DNA from: Microbacterium salitolerans
GTDB lineage: Bacteria > Actinomycetota > Actinomycetes > Actinomycetales > Microbacteriaceae
Direction of reading: 5' to 3'
Assembly: GCF_019720895.1 (NCBI RefSeq)
Contig: NZ_JAHKSH010000004.1
Span: 461,716 to 525,715 of the forward strand
Length of the DNA stretch: 64,000 nucleotides
Shown piece after piece: positions 22,566-63,872 of this stretch. Position 1 is the first letter of the stretch. Each line of letters starts with the position of its first letter. The position numbers and the translations under genes are program-made. The notes under the pieces are model-generated. The model saw only the letters and a list, made by a program, of their open reading frames with translations. It was not told the DNA's origin and did not search any database.

Positions 22566-22604
22566 GTGGGCCCAGCGGGGCTCGAACCCGCGACCCGCGG
22601 ATTA
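22566..22604. repeat. attL core (displaced 3' half of tRNA-Lys)
   Basis: The 39 bases match 62384-62422 with one difference (C at 22581, T at 62399), falling in the T-loop of the tRNA. The sequence diverges right after GCGGATTA, so only the tRNA 3' half is here. This is the original host 3' half, pushed aside by integration, next to its stranded terminator. Confidence 0.93.
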
Positions 22605-22674
22605 TCAGAGCGCTGTTTCAGAACCGCGGTCCATCGTCGACCTTGCTGAGTTCCGCGAGGCGCGGGTCTCGTGA
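22605..22674 (+). other. Stranded 3' end of the phage repressor gene
   Basis: Read in the frame set by the att core, 22603-22671 encodes 23 residues, from YQSAVSEP to EFREARVS, followed by TGA at 22672-22674. In the excised circle this segment would directly follow the repressor codons ending ...RPAD, extending the protein from 116 to 139 aa. In the prophage it has no start and is separated from its gene by 39.8 kb. Confidence 0.7.
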
Positions 22675-32709: not shown

Positions 32710-33279
32710 TCACTCCTCGGCTGTCGCGTACGTGTCGGCGGTGGCTTCTGCGGTCTCGTAGGTGCCGGCGACGTCCCCCGCCTCCTGGTAGGAGTGCGGC
32801 GGGTAGAACTCGAAGTCGAACGTCACGCCGGCGGGGCGGTGCCGTTCGGCGAGTGCTCGGATCGTGGCCTGCGTCGTGCCGGGGGCGAAGTCCGATTCGT
32901 AGACGCGGATCGTCGCGTGCCACGCACCGGTGTCTCGCTCGTCGACGAACACGCGGCGCGTGTCGACGAGGGCGGACCTGATCGATGCGAGCAGCGCCTT
33001 GTACGTGCCACGAGACCAGCCGGGGCGCGTGCGAATGATGGTGCGCTGCTCTTCGGGGGTGAGGGTCGGATCCGGGTTGATGCCGACCAGCTGCGCGAGC
33101 CATCCGGGCTGCGGGCCGTCCACGTCGAACGCGGCCGCCCATCCGTCTGGGGTGAGCGCGACGAGCTCGTCGGTTCCGGCGACCGGCGCGGTGAGGCTCT
33201 CGACGAGCGGTGTGAGGTGCTCGCCGGCGTGGCGACGAAACGATGCGCCGAGGCCGGCGAGGACGCGGTCGGCGATCAT
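32710..33279 (-). CDS. Tail protein I-like baseplate component
   Basis: 189 aa, start overlapping the baseplate J stop (ATGA). TPDGWAAAFDVDGPQPGWLA with QLVGINPDPTLTPEEQR, and a C-terminal portion in which a DFEFYPPHSYQEAG segment precedes repeated ATAD/TYAT motifs, match the tail-I pattern (P2 gpI), which sits next to J in contractile-tail phages. Confidence 0.65.
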   Translation of the reverse strand: MIADRVLAGLGASFRRHAGEHLTPLVESLTAPVAGTDELVALTPDGWAAAFDVDGPQPGWLAQLVGINPDPTLTPEEQRTIIRTRPGWSRGTYKALLASIRSALVDTRRVFVDERDTGAWHATIRVYESDFAPGTTQATIRALAERHRPAGVTFDFEFYPPHSYQEAGDVAGTYETAEATADTYATAEE

Positions 33280-34463
33280 GAGGCGGTAACCGTCACGGTC
33301 GCGTCGACGAGCGCACCGGGGCCGGCGAGCGCGATGTCGGCCGTACCGCCGTCGAGGGTGATCCCGTTGATCGCCGCGACACCGGGGACGGTCGCGACGA
33401 CGACCGCGACATCGAGCGTGCGGAGCGTGTCGACTTCCGCCCACGTCGCGGAGTCACCGTCGGCGGTGCCCCACACGGAGGATGACAGCGCCTTGGTGAC
33501 GGCTGCGGTGACGGCTGCCTCCACGGCGGGTGTCTCCTGCCCGGTCGCGGCGGTCACCGTCACGTCGACGGCGACGGCGGTCCGCGTCGGGTCGATCAGA
33601 TGGAAGATGAAGCCCACTTCCCTGATCCCCTCGAGCGCGGCCTGCAGGCGCTCTCTCGCGAACGTGTCGAGGTCAGCGCCCGTGGCGGTGACGGGGATGA
33701 TCGTCACGGCTCGGTCGGCAGGTGTGCCCGGATCGTTCGGGTCGTACCGGTCGAGGGCGAGGGCGCGCTGCGTGCCCTCCACGGTCGTCGCGAACGCGGC
33801 GAGATCCTCGGCCCGCACACCTCCCGGCTTCAGCGTCGCGAGCCACGCGGTGAAGCGGGTCAGGAACGTCGTCAGGGTCTCTGCCCCGACGCCACCCGTC
33901 GCCGGCGCCGTCAGCGTCGCGGTGATGATGACGGGCGAGACGGTCTGGATCGACGCCTTCTCACCGATCGTGCCCGTGTTCCACTCGTCGCCGATGTCGA
34001 GGGCGAGGAAGTCGACCGCGATGTCGCCGCGCCAGTAGCCCGCGAAGTCACCGGAGGCGACCTCCGCGAACGACGCGACGAGGGTGATCTGCTTCGGGAC
34101 GACGAACGGCTGCTGCCCCACGGTGATGGTGAAGCCGGCCGGGACGGTCACCCCGCGATCGAATGGCGCGGTTCCCGCCGACGGCGGCAGCTGCGCCGTG
34201 AGGGTCACCTGCGGCAGCACCGCTTTGAGGCCGTCGATCGGCTCGAAGCCGAACGCTGCCGCGACGCCGGCGGCTGCGTACTCCGCTGCGGTCACCGCCG
34301 CCCGGTTCACGGCTGCCAGCTGGTAGCCGATCTCTTCGGCGAGCGCGACCTCGGGGGCGCCCTCGGAGGGGATCCAGCCCGGGATCTTCTGGGAGAGGCC
34401 GGTGAGGATGTTGCGGATGATCGTCCCCTCGTCGATGGGGACGGGCAGCGGTTCCCAGGGCAT
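33276..34463 (-). CDS. Baseplate J-like wedge protein
   Basis: 395 aa. N-terminal ILTGLSQKIPGWIPSEGAPE and the following AVNRAAVTAAEYAAAGVAAA helix, PFDRGVTVPAGFTITVGQ and later TVTAATGQETPAVEAAVTAA are the features of baseplate J proteins (P2 gpJ / T4 gp6). A structural wedge part of the baseplate. Confidence 0.88.
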   Translation of the reverse strand: MPWEPLPVPIDEGTIIRNILTGLSQKIPGWIPSEGAPEVALAEEIGYQLAAVNRAAVTAAEYAAAGVAAAFGFEPIDGLKAVLPQVTLTAQLPPSAGTAPFDRGVTVPAGFTITVGQQPFVVPKQITLVASFAEVASGDFAGYWRGDIAVDFLALDIGDEWNTGTIGEKASIQTVSPVIITATLTAPATGGVGAETLTTFLTRFTAWLATLKPGGVRAEDLAAFATTVEGTQRALALDRYDPNDPGTPADRAVTIIPVTATGADLDTFARERLQAALEGIREVGFIFHLIDPTRTAVAVDVTVTAATGQETPAVEAAVTAAVTKALSSSVWGTADGDSATWAEVDTLRTLDVAVVVATVPGVAAINGITLDGGTADIALAGPGALVDATVTVTAS

Positions 34464-40183: not shown

Positions 40184-41293
40184 TCAGCTCGCGAGCGAGG
40201 TGACGACGTTGATGACGATCTGCTCGGCCGCCGTGGAGGCCGTGATGGCGATGTCCGCGTGCACCTCGCCGTTGGCGATGGTCTCGGGGGTGTTGTTCGT
40301 GAAGTCGGCGATGACCGTGAAGGCGTCGTCGGCGGTGTCTCCGAACAGGGCGCCCTCGTTGTAGAGGCCGAGGAGGTACCCGCTGATGTCGCCGCCGACC
40401 TGCGACAGGAGGATCCCCTGCCCATCGATCGGAGCGCCCAGGTACTGGTACATGAGCGCCGAGACGCGCGCGGAGACCTCCATCGTGAGGCGGCCGATGT
40501 TGAGCTGCCGCCACACGGGTTCCGTGCCGACCGACTTCCAGCCGGTCAGCGTGACGACACCGAGGACGTCTCGAAAGACGTTCACTCCCGCGTCGTAGAG
40601 GTCGTCGACGTCGGAGTCGCCGAAGGCCGTGACGACGCCGAGAGCGCCCGACACCGAGCCTGCGCCGCGCCCCTGGTCGAAGATCGGCGCGTTGTTCGAG
40701 TTGCCCGCCGTCGCATCGCCGCGCGCGGCGAGGCCGGCGGCGATGACCGAGGCCGGCACCGTGCGGGCTGCACCGGAGCCGGGAAGAGACACCCACGGCC
40801 CGAACACGGCCGCTCGCTCCGCACCGGCGGTCGCGGCCATGGCCGCGGCCGCGGTCGCGATCGTGGAGGCATCGTCGCCCTCGCCGACGTCGAGGAACGC
40901 GACGCGCTGCGGGTTCGCATCGACGTGCGCGAGGAGCGTCGTGGTCGCGGCCGCGTCGGCGACGCCGGGGATGGCGACCTGGCCGGGGCCGTACGACGGG
41001 GTGAGGAGGTCGAGCGCGACCTTCCACTCCGCCTCCGTGACGGCGCCGGCGTCGATGGCTTCCGCTCGGATGACGATCACCTCGGGAGCGCCCTGCGTGA
41101 GTGCGTCGCCGATCCACTGTGCTGTGGCCGTGGGGACGTCCGCGTCCTCCGCCTGCGCGACGGACGTCACGCGGGTCGGGGTGAGGGGGCCGGCGGGGCC
41201 GGCGTACACGAAGAACAGCGTGCCGGTTGCCGTGGGAAGTGAGGCCACTGGGAGTGCCCCGCTGATGTTGACAGATACCTGAGGACGCACCAT
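40184..41293 (-). CDS. Contractile tail sheath protein
   Basis: 369 aa. Starts MVRPQVSVNISGALPVASLP. Middle segments resemble the sheath core (GQVAIPGVADAAATTTLLAH, ERAAVFGPWVSLPGSGAAR, VPASVIAAGLAARGD, YDAGVNVFRDVLGVVTLTGW, QLNIGRLTMEVSARVSALM), with the conserved N-V and R positions of phage sheath subunits. This gene identifies the phage as a myovirus. Confidence 0.88.
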   Translation of the reverse strand: MVRPQVSVNISGALPVASLPTATGTLFFVYAGPAGPLTPTRVTSVAQAEDADVPTATAQWIGDALTQGAPEVIVIRAEAIDAGAVTEAEWKVALDLLTPSYGPGQVAIPGVADAAATTTLLAHVDANPQRVAFLDVGEGDDASTIATAAAAMAATAGAERAAVFGPWVSLPGSGAARTVPASVIAAGLAARGDATAGNSNNAPIFDQGRGAGSVSGALGVVTAFGDSDVDDLYDAGVNVFRDVLGVVTLTGWKSVGTEPVWRQLNIGRLTMEVSARVSALMYQYLGAPIDGQGILLSQVGGDISGYLLGLYNEGALFGDTADDAFTVIADFTNNTPETIANGEVHADIAITASTAAEQIVINVVTSLAS

Positions 41294-44738: not shown

Positions 44739-45098
44739 TCAGCGCAGGAACTTGACGGGGGCGAGCTCGCCCGAGGAAGCGTCACCGAGCGCGACGCCGA
44801 GGAGGACGTCGGTGCTGTCGGTGCCGGCCGTGTAGACGGCGACCTGTCCGTCTGCGGCGGCCTTGACGAGGTCGCCCTGTGCGATCGCGGCGGATGCGAC
44901 GAGTCGCTGGACGCCGCCGCTGTAGACGGTGACGTGGTCGCCGGATGCGGCATCGCGGGCGGCGACGCCGATGACGGTCGTCGCGTCCGCGCCGGCGGGG
45001 GTGCCGGCCGCGGTGACGATCTGACCACCAGTGACGTCGGCGGTCGCGACGATGGTGATCGCCGCGCCGGGGTTGTGCTTCGGCAGGTAGCCAGGCAT
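44739..45098 (-). CDS. Head decoration (capsid cement) protein
   Basis: 119 aa, Ala/Gly/Val-rich beta barrel: GYLPKHNPGAAITIVATADV, VIGVAARDAASGDHVTVYSG and GQVAVYTAGTDSTDVLLGVA. These are typical of DUF2190/lambda-D-like cement proteins that stabilise heads, located between protease and capsid genes. Confidence 0.75.
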   Translation of the reverse strand: MPGYLPKHNPGAAITIVATADVTGGQIVTAAGTPAGADATTVIGVAARDAASGDHVTVYSGGVQRLVASAAIAQGDLVKAAADGQVAVYTAGTDSTDVLLGVALGDASSGELAPVKFLR

Positions 45099-46303
45099 CA
45101 GCGTGCTCCGTTCGTGAAGCCCATGCGGGCAGCGAAGGCGGCGACGGCGGCGTCGTCGGCGGCGGCGACGGTCTCGCCGTCAGCGTCGAAGCCGGCCTCG
45201 TCGACGGGGATCGTGTTCTCCGCGAGCTCGTCGATGACGGCGCGGGTGCCCTCGGGGTCCGCGTCGTAGAGCTTGACGAAGTTGTCGCGACGGGCGGCGG
45301 CGAACTTGCCGCGACTGATCGCGTTGTCGATGTAGCGGTCGCGCTCCTCGCGCTTCTGCTGCTTGCGAGCCTCGACGCCGGCCTGCGCCTGCGTGCGGAG
45401 GTCGTCGAGCGCGGAGGCGTCGATGGTGACGACACCGTCCGGGAGCTGCGGGGTCGGGCGGGCGGCGACGGCCGACAAGATCGCCGTCTCGTCCGCGTCG
45501 TCGGTAAGCCCGAGGGAGGCTCGCATGGTGTTGAGCTGGTCGTCGCTGAAGGCCACGGCCGTCTCCTTTCCTGTTGGGGTGCCGGACGCGGACGCGACCG
45601 GGGTCGGGATGGTCGAGGCCACGCGGAGGGTGGTGGAGTCCTCGACGTCGTCGAGATCCGCGTCGAGGTCTCCGCCGGGAGTGGCGGTCTCCCCGGCGTC
45701 GGGGATGACGGCGATGCGGTCGGCGAGGCCGAGCTCGACGGCCGCCTGCGAGTTGAGCCAGGTCTCCTCAGCGAGCAGCTCGGCCCATTCCTTCTCGCCG
45801 GCCTTGCCGGTGTAGATCTCGATGAGCGTGGACTCGAAGCTGTCGAGCACGCCCGCGGTCTTTCGCAGCTCGGACGCGTTGCCGAGCGCGAACGACCACG
45901 GCGAGTGGATCATCATCTGCGTGCCGGGGCTCATGACCGTCTCGTCACACCCTGCGGCGATGACGCTGGCGGCCGAAGCGGCGAGCCCGTCGACGACTGC
46001 TGTGACGGTCGCCTTGTGTGCGCGCAGCATGTTGAGGATCGCCACCGCCTCGGCGACCTCGCCGCCAGGGCTGTTGATCCGCAGCACGATGCGCTCGACC
46101 GTGCTGGGCAGCTGGTCGAGCACTTCGCCGATGTCGGACGTCGAGACACCGAACCATCCCGAATAGCTGTCGATCGGTCCGTAGAGCCGGATCGTCGCGA
46201 CCTCACCGTCACCGGTGGGGTTCGGGGTCGTGACCGCGTTGAAGAACTCCGCCTTCGTCTTCGGTGGCGTCCGGTCCCCCCAGTAGCGGTTCTCCCACTT
46301 CAT
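45098..46303 (-). CDS. ClpP-type prohead protease fused to scaffolding region
   Basis: 401 aa. Residues ~40-190 are a ClpP-like S14 protease: INSPGGEVAEAVAILNMLRA, VDGLAASAASVIAAG with the catalytic Ser, and MMIHSPWSFALGN with the His. The remaining ~200 residues are acidic and helical (RKQQKREERDRYIDNAISRG, AARRDNFVKLYDADPEGTRA), as in phage scaffold segments. Protease and scaffold in one chain would process itself during head maturation. Confidence 0.88.
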   Translation of the reverse strand: MKWENRYWGDRTPPKTKAEFFNAVTTPNPTGDGEVATIRLYGPIDSYSGWFGVSTSDIGEVLDQLPSTVERIVLRINSPGGEVAEAVAILNMLRAHKATVTAVVDGLAASAASVIAAGCDETVMSPGTQMMIHSPWSFALGNASELRKTAGVLDSFESTLIEIYTGKAGEKEWAELLAEETWLNSQAAVELGLADRIAVIPDAGETATPGGDLDADLDDVEDSTTLRVASTIPTPVASASGTPTGKETAVAFSDDQLNTMRASLGLTDDADETAILSAVAARPTPQLPDGVVTIDASALDDLRTQAQAGVEARKQQKREERDRYIDNAISRGKFAAARRDNFVKLYDADPEGTRAVIDELAENTIPVDEAGFDADGETVAAADDAAVAAFAARMGFTNGAR

Positions 46304-47664
46304 GCGTTCTCCTCCTGGTTGGCTGCGGCGAGCGCGGCGGTGGTCGCGGGCGGGAGGCCCAGCGTGGAGCGGATGAACTTCTCGAGGTCCTCGTCGCCGT
46401 GGATGACACCGGACTGGATGAGGGAGGCGATCGCGGTGAGGATCGACTCCTGTCGGGATCCGATCTCGTCGAACACGATCCGAGGCGCTGCGACGTCGGG
46501 GCCGTAGTTGATGTCGACGAGGTCTTCGACGACGTGCTTCGTGGCGGTCGAACGAATGTTCTCGGCGACGGCTTGGATGCTCAGGGTGAAGAAGTCCGCG
46601 AAGGTCGACCCGAGGGCCCAGCTGCCGGTCTGGCTTCCGAGGTTGAGGAAGTGCGCGAGGACGCTGCGGCTGATCTGCTCGTCGTGGTACTTGATCTTCT
46701 CGAGGATGTTCGGGAGCGATCCGGTCACGCCGACCAGCTCGAACTTGGCATCCTTCGCGAGCGAAACTCCGGAGTTGTCGCCGGCCTGCACGCCGGCCGC
46801 GATGTCGAGACCGGCGTCGAGCGAGTCGGGACTGTTGTCCGCGGCGGTATGTACGGGGATGCCGAGGCCGTTGCGTTCGACGACCTGCGCGTCGATGCGG
46901 AGGAAGCGATCCTTCAGCATCACGTTCTTGTAGGCCGAGCGCAGCACGCTCTCGCCGATCCAGTTCCCGCCCTTTCGGCGGTTCGTGTAGACGACGAGTC
47001 GGTCGACCGGGAGCGTCGTCCCATCGATCGAGACGTACCCGGTGAGGCGGTGGCTGTCGGTCTGCGTGGCGTACTGCTGCACGCCGATGAGTCCCCCGTC
47101 GGCGGCGACCTTCCACGCGGCGATCGTGCGTGCGGGGCGGTAGCCGAGCTTTCGGAGGTGGAACAGTCCGTCGCCGCCCTCGTCGATGGACCGGGGCCGG
47201 TAGTAGACCTGCTCGAAGACGGCGTGCCCGAACTGCAGGTGATCGGGCACGACGACGGCGAGGTGCTCGGTCCACGAGAAGCGACCGCGCGTGCGCGTCG
47301 AGGGGACGCTGTTCTCCTCGCCGACGATCGGGAGGCCGAGGTCACGGGACACGTGAGCGACCACCTCGGGGTCGCATCCTGTCCCGTCGATGCGCCAGCC
47401 TGTGCGCATGATCGGCGTCGCGATCGCGCTGAGCACGCTCGACGCCTGCGCATCCTGGCGGACCATGTTCTCGAACACCTGCACCGACTCCGGCCAGCGC
47501 AGTTCCGGCGTGGGCTCGTTGGTGAGATCGGTCCACCACGAGTCCGCCGACTCGGTCGTGTAGCCGCGCTCCCGCGTCGCCGCCGAGGCCGGCACGAAAT
47601 CGGCCTTCACACGGCGAGCGCGGTCGACGCGAGACTGGATGCGGGGTGCGGGGCGACGAGCCAT
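46300..47664 (-). CDS. Portal protein (DUF935 / Mu gp29-like)
   Basis: 454 aa. MARRPAPRIQSRVDRARRVK start behind AAGGGGA. RWPESVQVFENMVRQDAQAS, GTGCDPEVVAHVSRDLGL, WTEHLAVVVPDHLQFGHAVF and NWIGESVLRSAYKNVMLKDR match the DUF935 portal family. It forms the DNA channel at the packaging vertex. A longer in-frame extension to 48006 overlaps the terminase and is not used. Confidence 0.85.
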   Translation of the reverse strand: MARRPAPRIQSRVDRARRVKADFVPASAATRERGYTTESADSWWTDLTNEPTPELRWPESVQVFENMVRQDAQASSVLSAIATPIMRTGWRIDGTGCDPEVVAHVSRDLGLPIVGEENSVPSTRTRGRFSWTEHLAVVVPDHLQFGHAVFEQVYYRPRSIDEGGDGLFHLRKLGYRPARTIAAWKVAADGGLIGVQQYATQTDSHRLTGYVSIDGTTLPVDRLVVYTNRRKGGNWIGESVLRSAYKNVMLKDRFLRIDAQVVERNGLGIPVHTAADNSPDSLDAGLDIAAGVQAGDNSGVSLAKDAKFELVGVTGSLPNILEKIKYHDEQISRSVLAHFLNLGSQTGSWALGSTFADFFTLSIQAVAENIRSTATKHVVEDLVDINYGPDVAAPRIVFDEIGSRQESILTAIASLIQSGVIHGDEDLEKFIRSTLGLPPATTAALAAANQEENA

Positions 47665-60832: not shown

Positions 60833-61498
60833 TCAGTCGAAGAGGGGCCGGAGCGTGTCCGGCGCTGCGGGGATCGGCTCGGGCGTCAGCTCGTCGCGGA
60901 GCTGCTCGAGTCCGGAAGGGGTGATGTAGATCTGGCCGTACAGGGCGCGGCCGCGGCGGGACGGGTCCGGGTGCGGGATCCGGCGAACCGTCACCCACCC
61001 ACGCGAGCGCGACATCGTCGTCGGCGCCCACGCGTCATCGATGCGCTCGATCCAGCCGTGGTGCTCGAGGTACGCGAACAGACGGTCGCGTCCCATCGAG
61101 ATCTCCGGGTGGCGGTCAAGGTGACGGGCGGCGGATGCCACCGGGTACGCGCCCACGAACGACACGTCGCCGCGGGCAGCCTCAACCACGCGCGGCTCGA
61201 GGAGATTCGGGAGCTCGACATTCAGCCACGCGAGGAACTGGCGAGGCGTCTCGCGGCCGGCGTGCTCGTTGACCTTCGCGACGGCCGCATCGAGCGTGTA
61301 GAACGGCACGCCATCGAGGTCAGCGGGCCACTCGTCGCCGACGATCGTCTCGCCGGAGGACCAAGCGGGCACGTCGGCGAGCTGCTCGAGCTGGTCGGCG
61401 CGGAGGTAGACGTAGTCGCCGTCGACGACGATCGAGAGGTCTCCGTGGGAGATCCAGCGGGCGATGATCCGGACGGGCTCTTGCAGAAGGGTGTTCAT
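60833..61498 (-). CDS. Phage antirepressor-like protein (KilAC type)
   Basis: 221 aa. The C-terminal ~110 residues (SAARHLDRHPEISMGRDRLF, AYLEHHGWIERIDDAW, TTMSRSRGWVTVRRIP, YGQIYITPSGLEQLRDEL) follow the KilAC domain of phage antirepressors; the N-terminal half is unique. It lies two genes after the Cro-like gene and would help switch the phage from lysogeny to lysis. Confidence 0.72.
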   Translation of the reverse strand: MNTLLQEPVRIIARWISHGDLSIVVDGDYVYLRADQLEQLADVPAWSSGETIVGDEWPADLDGVPFYTLDAAVAKVNEHAGRETPRQFLAWLNVELPNLLEPRVVEAARGDVSFVGAYPVASAARHLDRHPEISMGRDRLFAYLEHHGWIERIDDAWAPTTMSRSRGWVTVRRIPHPDPSRRGRALYGQIYITPSGLEQLRDELTPEPIPAAPDTLRPLFD

Positions 61499-61992: not shown

Positions 61993-62007
61993 GACACGCG
62001 TCGTGTC
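61993..62007. promoter_or_regulatory. Palindromic operator candidate of the phage switch
   Basis: GACACG and CGTGTC arms with a CGT spacer form a perfect 15-bp palindrome in the 121-bp region between the divergent HTH genes. It lies between the two promoters, as expected for a shared operator. Confidence 0.6.
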
Positions 62008-62036: not shown

Positions 62037-62066
62037 TTGATCAAACTGGTCGGAATCCCATACACT
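62037..62066 (+). promoter_or_regulatory. Candidate repressor promoter
   Basis: TTGATC (62037-62042) and TACACT (62061-62066) are 18 bases apart. The first transcribed base would be near the ATG at 62073, so the repressor mRNA is probably leaderless. TTGATCAA here is also a palindrome. Confidence 0.55.
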
Positions 62067-62072
62067 GTGGAC

Positions 62073-62423
62073 ATGGCCCCGATCACGGAACTGCACCCCG
62101 CTGCAGACGACACACGCGCCTCACGCGCCGCATTCGTGCGCGACTCCCTGAAGAGTGAACGTTGGTCCATTCGCCACGCGGCCAGCGAGCTGGGCATGAG
62201 CCACACGGCACTCAGCACTCGCGTTCGCGGAGCGACGCCATTCCTCGCCGACGAGCTCGAGGCGATCGCTCGCTTCCTTCTCAAGCGGGACCCGATCGAG
62301 TTCTACGCCGAGTACCTCGCTGCCGGCCAGCCGCCGGCAGACACAAAAAACGCCCCCTTCCCGAAGGAAGGGGGCGTGAGCGAGTGGGCCCAGCGGGGTT
62401 CGAACCCGCGACCCGCGGATTAA
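62073..62423 (+). CDS. Phage repressor, prophage form, ending inside attR
   Basis: 116 aa. XRE-like HTH: DSLKSERWSIRHAASELGMS followed by HTALSTRVRGATPFLADELE, then LLKRDPIEFYAEYL. The gene continues over the tRNA terminator hairpin (KNAPFPKEGG) and the att core (WAQRGSNPRPAD) and meets TAA at 62421-62423, whose last A is host sequence. In the circular phage the same frame would continue 23 codons (see 22605-22674). GTG 62067 is an alternative start two codons earlier. It is divergent from the Cro-like gene. Confidence 0.8.
   Translation: MAPITELHPAADDTRASRAAFVRDSLKSERWSIRHAASELGMSHTALSTRVRGATPFLADELEAIARFLLKRDPIEFYAEYLAAGQPPADTKNAPFPKEGGVSEWAQRGSNPRPAD
62351..62376 (-). terminator. tRNA-Lys terminator carried by the phage
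   Basis: Perfect 11-bp arms (CGCCCCCTTCC and complement) with CGAA loop; on the minus strand the stem is followed by TTTTTT (62350-62345). It ends the reconstituted tRNA-Lys transcript and at the same time encodes residues of the repressor on the other strand. Confidence 0.88.
62384..62422. repeat. attR core
   Basis: 39-bp partner of 22566-22604 with one difference in the T-loop. Here it is joined to the host 5' half of tRNA-Lys, so the phage supplied the 3' half and the gene stays whole. Confidence 0.93.
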
Positions 62424-62457
62424 AAGTCCGATGCTCTGCCAACTGAGCTATAGGCCC
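62385..62457 (-). tRNA. tRNA-Lys(TTT), integration site
   Basis: 73 bases. Acceptor arms GGGCCTA and TGGGCCC pair with one G-U, the D-arm reads GCTCAGTTGGCAGAGC, the anticodon loop CTTTTAA gives TTT, and the T-arm is GCGGG-TTCGAAC-CCCGC. Discriminator A, no encoded CCA. The 3' half came with the prophage. A TAGGCT hexamer a few bases upstream is a possible -10. Confidence 0.97.
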
Positions 62458-62701: not shown

Positions 62702-62842
62702 AGCGCGCACAGGCGGCCGACGGCGCACCCGAGGTCGCCGGGCCTCCCGCGCCTCCCTCCTCCTCACATCCCGACGGAATCCGCCCGCGGGAGGCGATCC
62801 GTGAGCCAGAATGATCCCGTCCGCATTCGAAGAGGAGCCGTC

Positions 62843-63787
62843 ATGACCGCAGTCCGCATCGCCGTCGTCTGGAACCCCGCCAAGACCACGCGGGAAGAGC
62901 TGGAACAGGCGCTCCAGGACGCGTCATCGACAGAGTCCGCCCCCGAGGTGCTGTGGTTCGAGACGAGCGTCGACGACCCCGGCTACGGGGCGGCGTCGCG
63001 GGCAGTGGACGCCGGAGCCGGGCTTGTCATCGCCGCGGGCGGCGACGGCACGGTGCGCCTCGTCGCCGAGCGCCTCGCAGAGTCCGACGACGTCGACCTC
63101 GCGATCGCACCGCTCGGCACGGGGAATCTGCTCGCTCGCAACCTCAAGGTGCCGATCGACGACCTCGCCGGCGCCATGACGCGCGCCCTCACCGGGACGC
63201 CCCGCGCCATCGACCTGGGCTGGGCGACGGCCGAGATCGACGGAGAGTCGCAGCGCCACGCGTTCGCCGTCATGGCGGGCTTCGGCATCGATGCGCACAT
63301 GATCACCGAGACCGACGACGATCTGAAGGATCGCGCCGGCTGGATCGCCTACGTCGAATCCCTCGGTCGCGCCGTCGCGGCGAGCGAGGTCATCTCGCTG
63401 CGCCTGACGGAGGACGGTGGGGAGCCGGTGGACGACGAGGCGCACACGCTCATCGTCGGCAACTGCGGGACGATCCAGGGCGGCCTCACGGTGCTGCCCG
63501 ACGCGGACCCGTCCGACGGCGAGCTCGATCTGCTGCTGCTCGACGCCGACGGCGTCTCCGGATGGCTCGACACGATGCGCAACATGCTGTGGGACAACGG
63601 CCTGCGCCGCCTCGTCGCCGGCGGAGCATCGTCCGCGCAGAGCAGCGAGTCAGCCGCGCACCACCGCACGACGAATGTCGTGATCGATCTCGCCGAGCCG
63701 CGCGACTTCGAGGTCGACGGCGACGTGCTCGGTCAGGTCACGCGCATCGAGTTCGAGGTCCAGAAGGCCGCCGTGCGGATCCGCTGA
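62843..63787 (+). CDS. Diacylglycerol kinase-family lipid kinase
   Basis: 314 aa. WNPAKTTREELEQAL, AAGGDGTVRLVAERL (the GGDGT nucleotide motif), PLGTGNLLARNL and GTIQGGLTVLPDADPSDGEL are the DagK/YegS signatures. It phosphorylates diacylglycerol or related lipids at the membrane. ATG 62843 follows GAGGAG; the frame is open to 62801 without a better site. Chromosomal gene to the right of the prophage. Confidence 0.92.
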   Translation: MTAVRIAVVWNPAKTTREELEQALQDASSTESAPEVLWFETSVDDPGYGAASRAVDAGAGLVIAAGGDGTVRLVAERLAESDDVDLAIAPLGTGNLLARNLKVPIDDLAGAMTRALTGTPRAIDLGWATAEIDGESQRHAFAVMAGFGIDAHMITETDDDLKDRAGWIAYVESLGRAVAASEVISLRLTEDGGEPVDDEAHTLIVGNCGTIQGGLTVLPDADPSDGELDLLLLDADGVSGWLDTMRNMLWDNGLRRLVAGGASSAQSSESAAHHRTTNVVIDLAEPRDFEVDGDVLGQVTRIEFEVQKAAVRIR

Positions 63788-63789
63788 CT

Positions 63790-63872
63790 CTAGGGCGTGT
63801 CTCACAATTGATCGCCGACTGCGCAGGTCGTGAGCGCGCGCCTCGCGGCTCCAATTATGAGACACACCCTAG
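63790..63872. repeat. 83-bp MITE-like palindromic element
   Basis: 21-bp ends CTAGGGCGTGTCTCACAATTG and the reverse CAATTATGAGACACACCCTAG differ at two positions. The ends look like terminal inverted repeats of IS elements (GGGTGTGTCTCA type) with CTAG at both tips as a likely target duplication. It has no room for a gene: a non-autonomous or decayed element. Confidence 0.6.

Follow-up and report, generated by a model that had tools for sequence, protein, structure and literature searches.

How does a temperate phage make its repressor when the repressor gene runs across the phage's own attachment site? Such an arrangement lies in the window, by which we mean the whole 64,000 nt stretch of a Microbacterium salitolerans contig analysed here (host genome, 3.46 Mb). 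A first-pass annotation had read it as integration-dependent immunity (IDI), a scheme described in phages such as Charlie, Brujita and BPs (PMC9262239, PMC5559632, PMC9934374, PMC4557955, PMC8092301). Charlie is one of the founding IDI phages. From the anatomy, frame and junction of the repressor and integrase locus, and from their conservation in relatives, all of which we establish below, we hold with considerable confidence that the locus is an IDI cassette.

The repressor gene crosses attP

The repressor reading frame passes through the att core and ends on a stop codon that host DNA completes (Table 1). attL and attR share a 39 bp core, identical at 38 of 39 positions with C22581/T62399 as the sole mismatch; the base after the core is T at 22605 on the phage side and A at 62423 on the host side. 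Rejoining the prophage ends at 62421+22604, equivalent to 62422+22605, gives a predicted attP that reads ..GGATTATCAG.. in the repressor frame, which places the attP core within the repressor gene as in IDI phages. With the core rejoined to 22605, the gene encodes a 139 aa viral repressor with the C-terminus YQSAVSEPRSIVDLAEFREARVS, and the first codon of its tail is shared with the core. Integration shortens the repressor from 139 to 116 aa and sets the stop near the junction, another mark of IDI. The first-pass annotation had claimed a frame running through the core to a 116 aa product whose TAA takes its last base from the host, a 23-codon extension to TGA at 22672-22674 giving 139 aa, and an integrase about 150 bases past the tail on the same strand. 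The coordinates and lengths stand, rejoining recovers the extension, and the integrase probably starts 151 bp after the tail stop. It was also right that the lost tail has no ssrA-like LAA end: the viral form ends ARVS, departing from a typical, though not universal, feature of IDI. The missing tag does not exclude IDI membership, because published IDI prophages without one exist; the repressors of the M. abscessus prophages MabC, N, O and H are likewise untagged (PMC8092301).

Table 1. Features of the prophage and its repressor/integrase locus in the window.
Feature	Coordinates	Strand	Remarks
Prophage	about 22605-62422		encodes tail sheath, baseplate wedge, tape measure, major head protein, terminase
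attL core	22566..22604	+	host copy of tRNA-Lys 3' half
Separated 3' end of viral repressor gene	22605..22674	+	last 23 codons of 139 aa form; homologous tails in 14 relatives
Tyrosine integrase, 301 aa	22826..23731	+	C-terminus GRGRGHAA; start GTG 22826 probable, GGAGG ahead
Baseplate wedge subunit	33276..34463	-	PHROG 6, E 9.9e-12
Tail sheath	40184..41293	-	PHROG 23, E 3.7e-28; contractile virion
Divergent Cro-like HTH gene, 79 aa	61712..61951	-	
Candidate operator GACACG-CGT-CGTGTC	61993..62007	.	
Possible repressor promoter TTGATC-18-TACACT	62037..62066	+	read by eye
Predicted immunity repressor, lysogen form, 116 aa	62073..62423	+	ATG 62073; TAA closed by host base 62423
Intrinsic terminator of tRNA-Lys	62350..62377	-	inside repressor coding sequence
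attR core	62384..62422	+	antisense tRNA-Lys 3' half, within repressor frame
tRNA-Lys(ttt), attB target	62384..62457	-	rebuilt at attR; ARAGORN

The integrase resembles that of Charlie. In the viral form it shares a strand with the repressor and lies 3' of it, with a Cro-like gene diverging. It aligns to PHROG 1 from profile position 172 onward only, and may lack an arm-binding domain. The ssrA-like integrase end characteristic of IDI is present: the window protein ends HAA, and AA closes 16 of 18 integrases across the clade, all but those of G415 (LTA) and L057 (NAP). IdentityCrisis (39.5% identity) and Charlie (36.7%) are the top-listed named relatives, and a search with the integrase of a clade relative also matches Brujita.

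The target of integration is a tRNA gene. tRNA-Lys(ttt) is the only tRNA that ARAGORN finds in the window, a search of the genome for its 5'-half pattern, allowing up to 2 mismatches, gives a single site, and the overlapping attB leaves it rebuilt upon integration, as in IDI. When 292 genomes were searched for an empty attB site, 10 matched the joined flanks, its own included, and the match in the other nine extends at most over the tRNA and its immediate vicinity. The right-flank gene (62801-63787) adjoins tRNA-Lys in one genome, G201, and no other genome matched among the 13 loci searched. Close to it, near the contig end, positions 63790-63872 hold an imperfect inverted repeat, read by eye as CTAGGGCGTGTCTCACAATTG ... 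CAATTATGAGACACACCCTAG, which is perhaps the end of a mobile element.

Judged by its tail sheath and baseplate wedge PHROGs, the phage is contractile-tailed, as the annotation had proposed. Adjoining the major head protein gene is a 725 aa open reading frame (45098-47275, minus strand) with a Clp-protease domain at residues 394-522 and a weak match to a Mu-like protease.

Frame, stop and tail recur in relatives

A single open tail is weak testimony. The 23 codons of the window tail stay open in 52% of mononucleotide shuffles; in this G+C-rich DNA an open tail is unremarkable, so one locus proves little and comparison is needed. Scans seeded with four integrases yielded 18 distinct clade members: the window, G142, G232, G210, G347, G415, L057, L059, L064-L072 and L091. 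Duplicates were counted once (L054 and L063 equal G142, L055 equals G232, L056 equals G210, L083 equals L058 and L082 equals L057; likewise L129-L133). Clade integrases are at least 44% identical to the window's wherever a figure was given, which it was not for G415; integrases below 44% were not scored for tails. L064 and L067 begin at int with nearly no upstream sequence and were dropped from the tail count.

Relatives keep both the frame and the position of the layout. In 15 of 16 readable members GGATTA leads into a tail that stays open in the phase of the repressor; the exception, L057, has no core within 1.2 kb and an integrase without the AA end. Wherever a prophage attR could be read (6/6), the helix-turn-helix (HTH) frame enters GAT-TA in the same phase and a host A closes TAA. 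Five viral contigs (L066, L068, L070, L071 and L091) carry the uninterrupted order repressor, tail, int. The probability that all 15 related tails are open by chance is about 1e-5 as a product and 5e-5 as counted, and past the first 9 codons the tails have a coding composition (GC at the three codon positions 0.72/0.50/0.72, over 246 codons). Chance is thus adequate as the entire explanation of the lone window tail but rejected for the set of 15. The comparison is convincing despite the chance-open single tail because frame, host-completed TAA and open tails recur in relatives. Together with the -AA end of an integrase that resembles Charlie's, and with the Brujita match of a clade relative's integrase, this conservation supports the IDI logic that the first-pass annotation had suggested.

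The same comparison bears on a reading without regulation, in which the overlap is a by-product of a frame running through captured tRNA DNA and the two repressor forms are alike in being stable and functional. The tRNA-Lys 3' half and its terminator do encode the final ~30 residues of the window repressor, and a 26 nt terminator hairpin identical to the window's adjoins tRNA-Lys in L008 (G201) and L010 (G175), which suggests that both elements were captured from a host. Such capture accounts for the end of the short form, and the chance-open window tail taken alone would fit as well. A by-product does not account for the shared frame and host-completed stop in all six prophages, for 15 open tails of coding composition, or for short-core relatives that keep the tail without a captured tRNA half; the close parallel with experimentally tested IDI phages (PMC4557955) also speaks against it. 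We consider this reading very unlikely.

The cassette looks modular, since virion genes are scarcely common to the relatives. Five window virion proteins searched against 22 loci found the tape measure in G142 and a weak terminase large subunit (TerL) in G142 and G182; the tail sheath had no match among the 22 loci, and the G232 prophage, covered whole, gave no virion match. Repressors fall into groups, the window with G232 and G142 with L066, L068 and L070, and the window and G142 repressors compare at background score.

A control region with one candidate operator

The repressor gene lies opposite the diverging Cro-like gene. Residues 23-116 of its product match PHROG 2328, transcriptional repressor, and the 116 aa protein is weakly similar to the annotated repressors of Min1 (E 5e-10), Butters and Hedwig; no close relatives were found in viral_contigs. 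Opposite the homologous repressor of G232 lies a palindrome of the same form as the candidate operator, GACACG-CCA-CGTGTC. The GACACG-N3-CGTGTC form was not found in the stretches searched of Min1, Charlie, Butters, Hedwig and G182, and a set of several operators is ruled out, with just one exact copy in the window. The promoter-like pair would give a leaderless repressor mRNA; a consensus promoter scan found no promoter at its threshold.

Could the two regulators have swapped roles, the 79 aa minus-strand HTH protein being the true repressor and the 62073 gene a lytic regulator, which would put the attP overlap on the other arm of the switch? Both are small HTH proteins that match the same PHROGs, and the 79 aa protein outscores the 62073 product against Pfam HTH models. 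It is nevertheless the 62073 gene that is co-oriented with int at attP and whose product is similar to proteins annotated as repressors in Min1, Butters and Hedwig, whereas the 79 aa gene points the other way and is followed by a gene for a KilAC antirepressor-domain (ANT) protein (60833-61498, minus strand). We give this exchange of roles hardly any credence.

A probable switch set by integration

We propose that integration itself turns on immunity. In the circular phage the repressor gene would run through attP and on for 23 more codons, with repressor and integrase probably on one transcript opposite the Cro-like gene. The integrase would recombine attP with tRNA-Lys(ttt), cutting off the repressor 3' end; an A from the host tRNA anticodon loop would convert TAT (Tyr) to TAA, and phage DNA would rebuild the tRNA together with its terminator. 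The 139 aa form would be kept inactive, most likely by its unstructured tail serving as a protease signal, and we infer that this long form is degraded. Stable repressor would be made by integrated genomes alone, and the integrase would be short-lived owing to its -AA end.

The tails carry some of the signature of a portable tag. Across 11 loci, tail similarity tracks that of the integrase (r 0.48, p 0.003) but not that of the repressor (r 0.10, p 0.17), the behaviour expected of a generic tag. Taken over the full set of 15, tails correlate with the integrase at 0.38, falling to 0.33 when 6 residues are removed (p 0.0014) and to 0.14, no longer significant, when 8 are removed (p 0.087). A strong reading is tempered by the start of the tail, whose first codons look like the right half of attB and probably serve as the integrase right half-site; tail conservation as a purely peptide-level property is rejected in part on account of that resemblance. 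It also counts against the proposal that AA ends only 3 of the 15 tails and A ends 8. A structure model of the full-length relative L070 (mean pLDDT 67.9, only four sequences) shows the tail as disordered. We considered whether the repressor N-terminus might pair with the tail, since each holds a short V-h-x-L stretch, and dropped the idea, both ends being disordered in that model.

In a variant of the same switch the tail would shut the repressor off with no proteolysis involved, for instance by hindering oligomerisation or DNA binding. The lack of an ssrA-like end in the window tail would suit such a block, as would a hydrophobic patch, a pattern chosen post hoc, that fits 11 of 15 tails, the window's not included. 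Similar tails on dissimilar repressors fit a generic signal better, however, and the -AA ends on integrases also point away from blocking, as does the report that both BPs forms bind DNA alike (PMC4557955). Blocking is possible and, we judge, unlikely, and proteolysis stays our preferred account. Since most of the 15 tails lack an AA end, they form a set in which the inactivating signal can be mapped.

Sister lineages apparently join IDI to tRNA-dependent lysogeny

The clade contains two states of integration. A tRNA-Lys(ttt) gene lies right after int in 13 of 18 members and is absent in the window, G142, G415, L057 and L072. In every carrier with a readable attR (G232, G210 and G347; 3/3) integration has left the host tRNA broken, and GGATTA is the whole core; in every non-carrier read (the window, G142 and G415; 3/3) the tRNA is rebuilt. 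A host tRNA left unrebuilt and a cognate phage tRNA are marks of tRNA-dependent lysogeny, and G232, G210 and G347 have both. By their gene order and junctions, these carriers apparently combine IDI with tRNA-dependent lysogeny. Directly behind an integrase ending in -AA, each carries a tRNA-Lys(ttt) of its own; the loci are L039:2442-3425 with L139 for G232, L042:12549-13523 with L140 for G210, and L083 with L136 for G347.

The integrase tree places both states side by side. The three rebuilding members and two carriers form a five-row group (100/99) beside a further carrier; the single branch separating rebuilding and carrier states is weak (63/23), and G415 sits on a long branch. From this placement, the ancestor of the window phage was probably a tRNA carrier. 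On balance we favour a fusion of two switches that have so far been described separately, in which one recombination at the 6 bp core, within the tRNA anticodon loop, both trims the repressor to its active form and breaks tRNA-Lys, and in which the window phage left this state by capturing the tRNA half and terminator. A carrier phage would replace the broken tRNA-Lys from the tRNA gene behind int. If this is true, immunity and host survival are tied to one recombination event, and the clade shows one way in which tRNA-dependent integration gave rise to the tRNA-rebuilding kind: both states occur within one well-supported integrase group, and the common terminator hairpin would be the trace of capture. 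How the two modes relate is a question raised in PMC10865867, and these relatives bear on it.

Isolated phages may carry the combined system at another tRNA. In Microbacterium phage Min1 (L052 2468-3839) the repressor holds GGATTA plus a tail, and the annotated int end is overlapped by a tRNA-Arg(tct). In Arthrobacter phage Zaheer (L155 2627-5061) the repressor, also with GGATTA plus a tail, reads ..LD-YK..; three genes separate it from int, which has a tRNA-Arg(tct) as its neighbour on the opposite strand. Each is a candidate for carrying the combined system at tRNA-Arg, although neither is annotated so. In antisense, tRNA-Arg(tct) of the host genome gives GGATTAG, so that a TAG would form at such a site, a possible attB of Min1 and Zaheer. 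Isolated phages with these features, such as Zaheer, make the combined system testable. In a more distant prophage, G182 (L006, L148; integrase identity 39%), the repressor crosses a tRNA-Val(tac) core, the stop TAA is entirely host DNA, the viral tail is ESERFRNTLAPVTSITDAPRLRQSQQKDSADVA and the integrase ends VIAA; G182 is likely a further IDI system at another tRNA.

Comparison with known systems

Reports of such systems were sought in the literature. In the texts searched, which include few subscription journals so that an absence there is weak, we found no pairing of IDI with tRNA-dependent lysogeny, no report of IDI in Microbacterium and, in the passages on IDI and myoviruses, no contractile IDI phage. 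Passages on cluster FF phages in PMC13097055 and PMC12821334 speak of tRNA and of integrases, and neither 'attP' nor 'integration-dependent' was found there.

tRNA-dependent lysogeny is known from Fionnbharth, LeBron and other phages (PMC10865867), and the same source contrasts it with IDI, its Table 2 naming no IDI. The window phage differs from that type in that it rebuilds the tRNA and carries none. G232, G210 and G347 are like it in breaking tRNA-Lys and holding a tRNA of the same anticodon near int. In the Fionnbharth type, integrases possess an arm-type domain and immunity does not depend on integration (PMC10865867), whereas the three sisters have short integrases and a repressor across a 6 bp core.

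The M. abscessus IDI prophages come near in description. PMC8092301 reports that the first bacterial base forms the stop, that 20-35 residues are lost and that the tRNA faces the repressor in some. The host-base stop of the window phage is like that of MabC, N, O, H, K and B; attB sites and hosts differ, and the likeness drawn here is between descriptions.

Closely akin are the mycobacteriophages Charlie and Butters (cluster N), BPs (cluster G) and Brujita. As in these phages, the repressor crosses attP in a tRNA core and is truncated on integration, the integrase lies downstream on the same strand, and a Cro-like gene diverges. The Charlie repressor runs through the core as ..GSNQRPAD-YQ.., that of the window as ..GSNPRPAD-YQ.., in the same frame, and the integrases are 36.7% identical. 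Unlike them, the window phage has a contractile virion, a viral tail that ends ARVS and a terminator within coding sequence; as annotated, the integrases of Charlie and Butters end AVS and AAS against HAA here. The window phage is, on well-supported grounds, the IDI scheme already known in actinobacterial phages, now in a contractile-tailed phage, which extends IDI to a contractile-tailed Microbacterium phage and, through its relatives, to prophages of other Microbacteriaceae.
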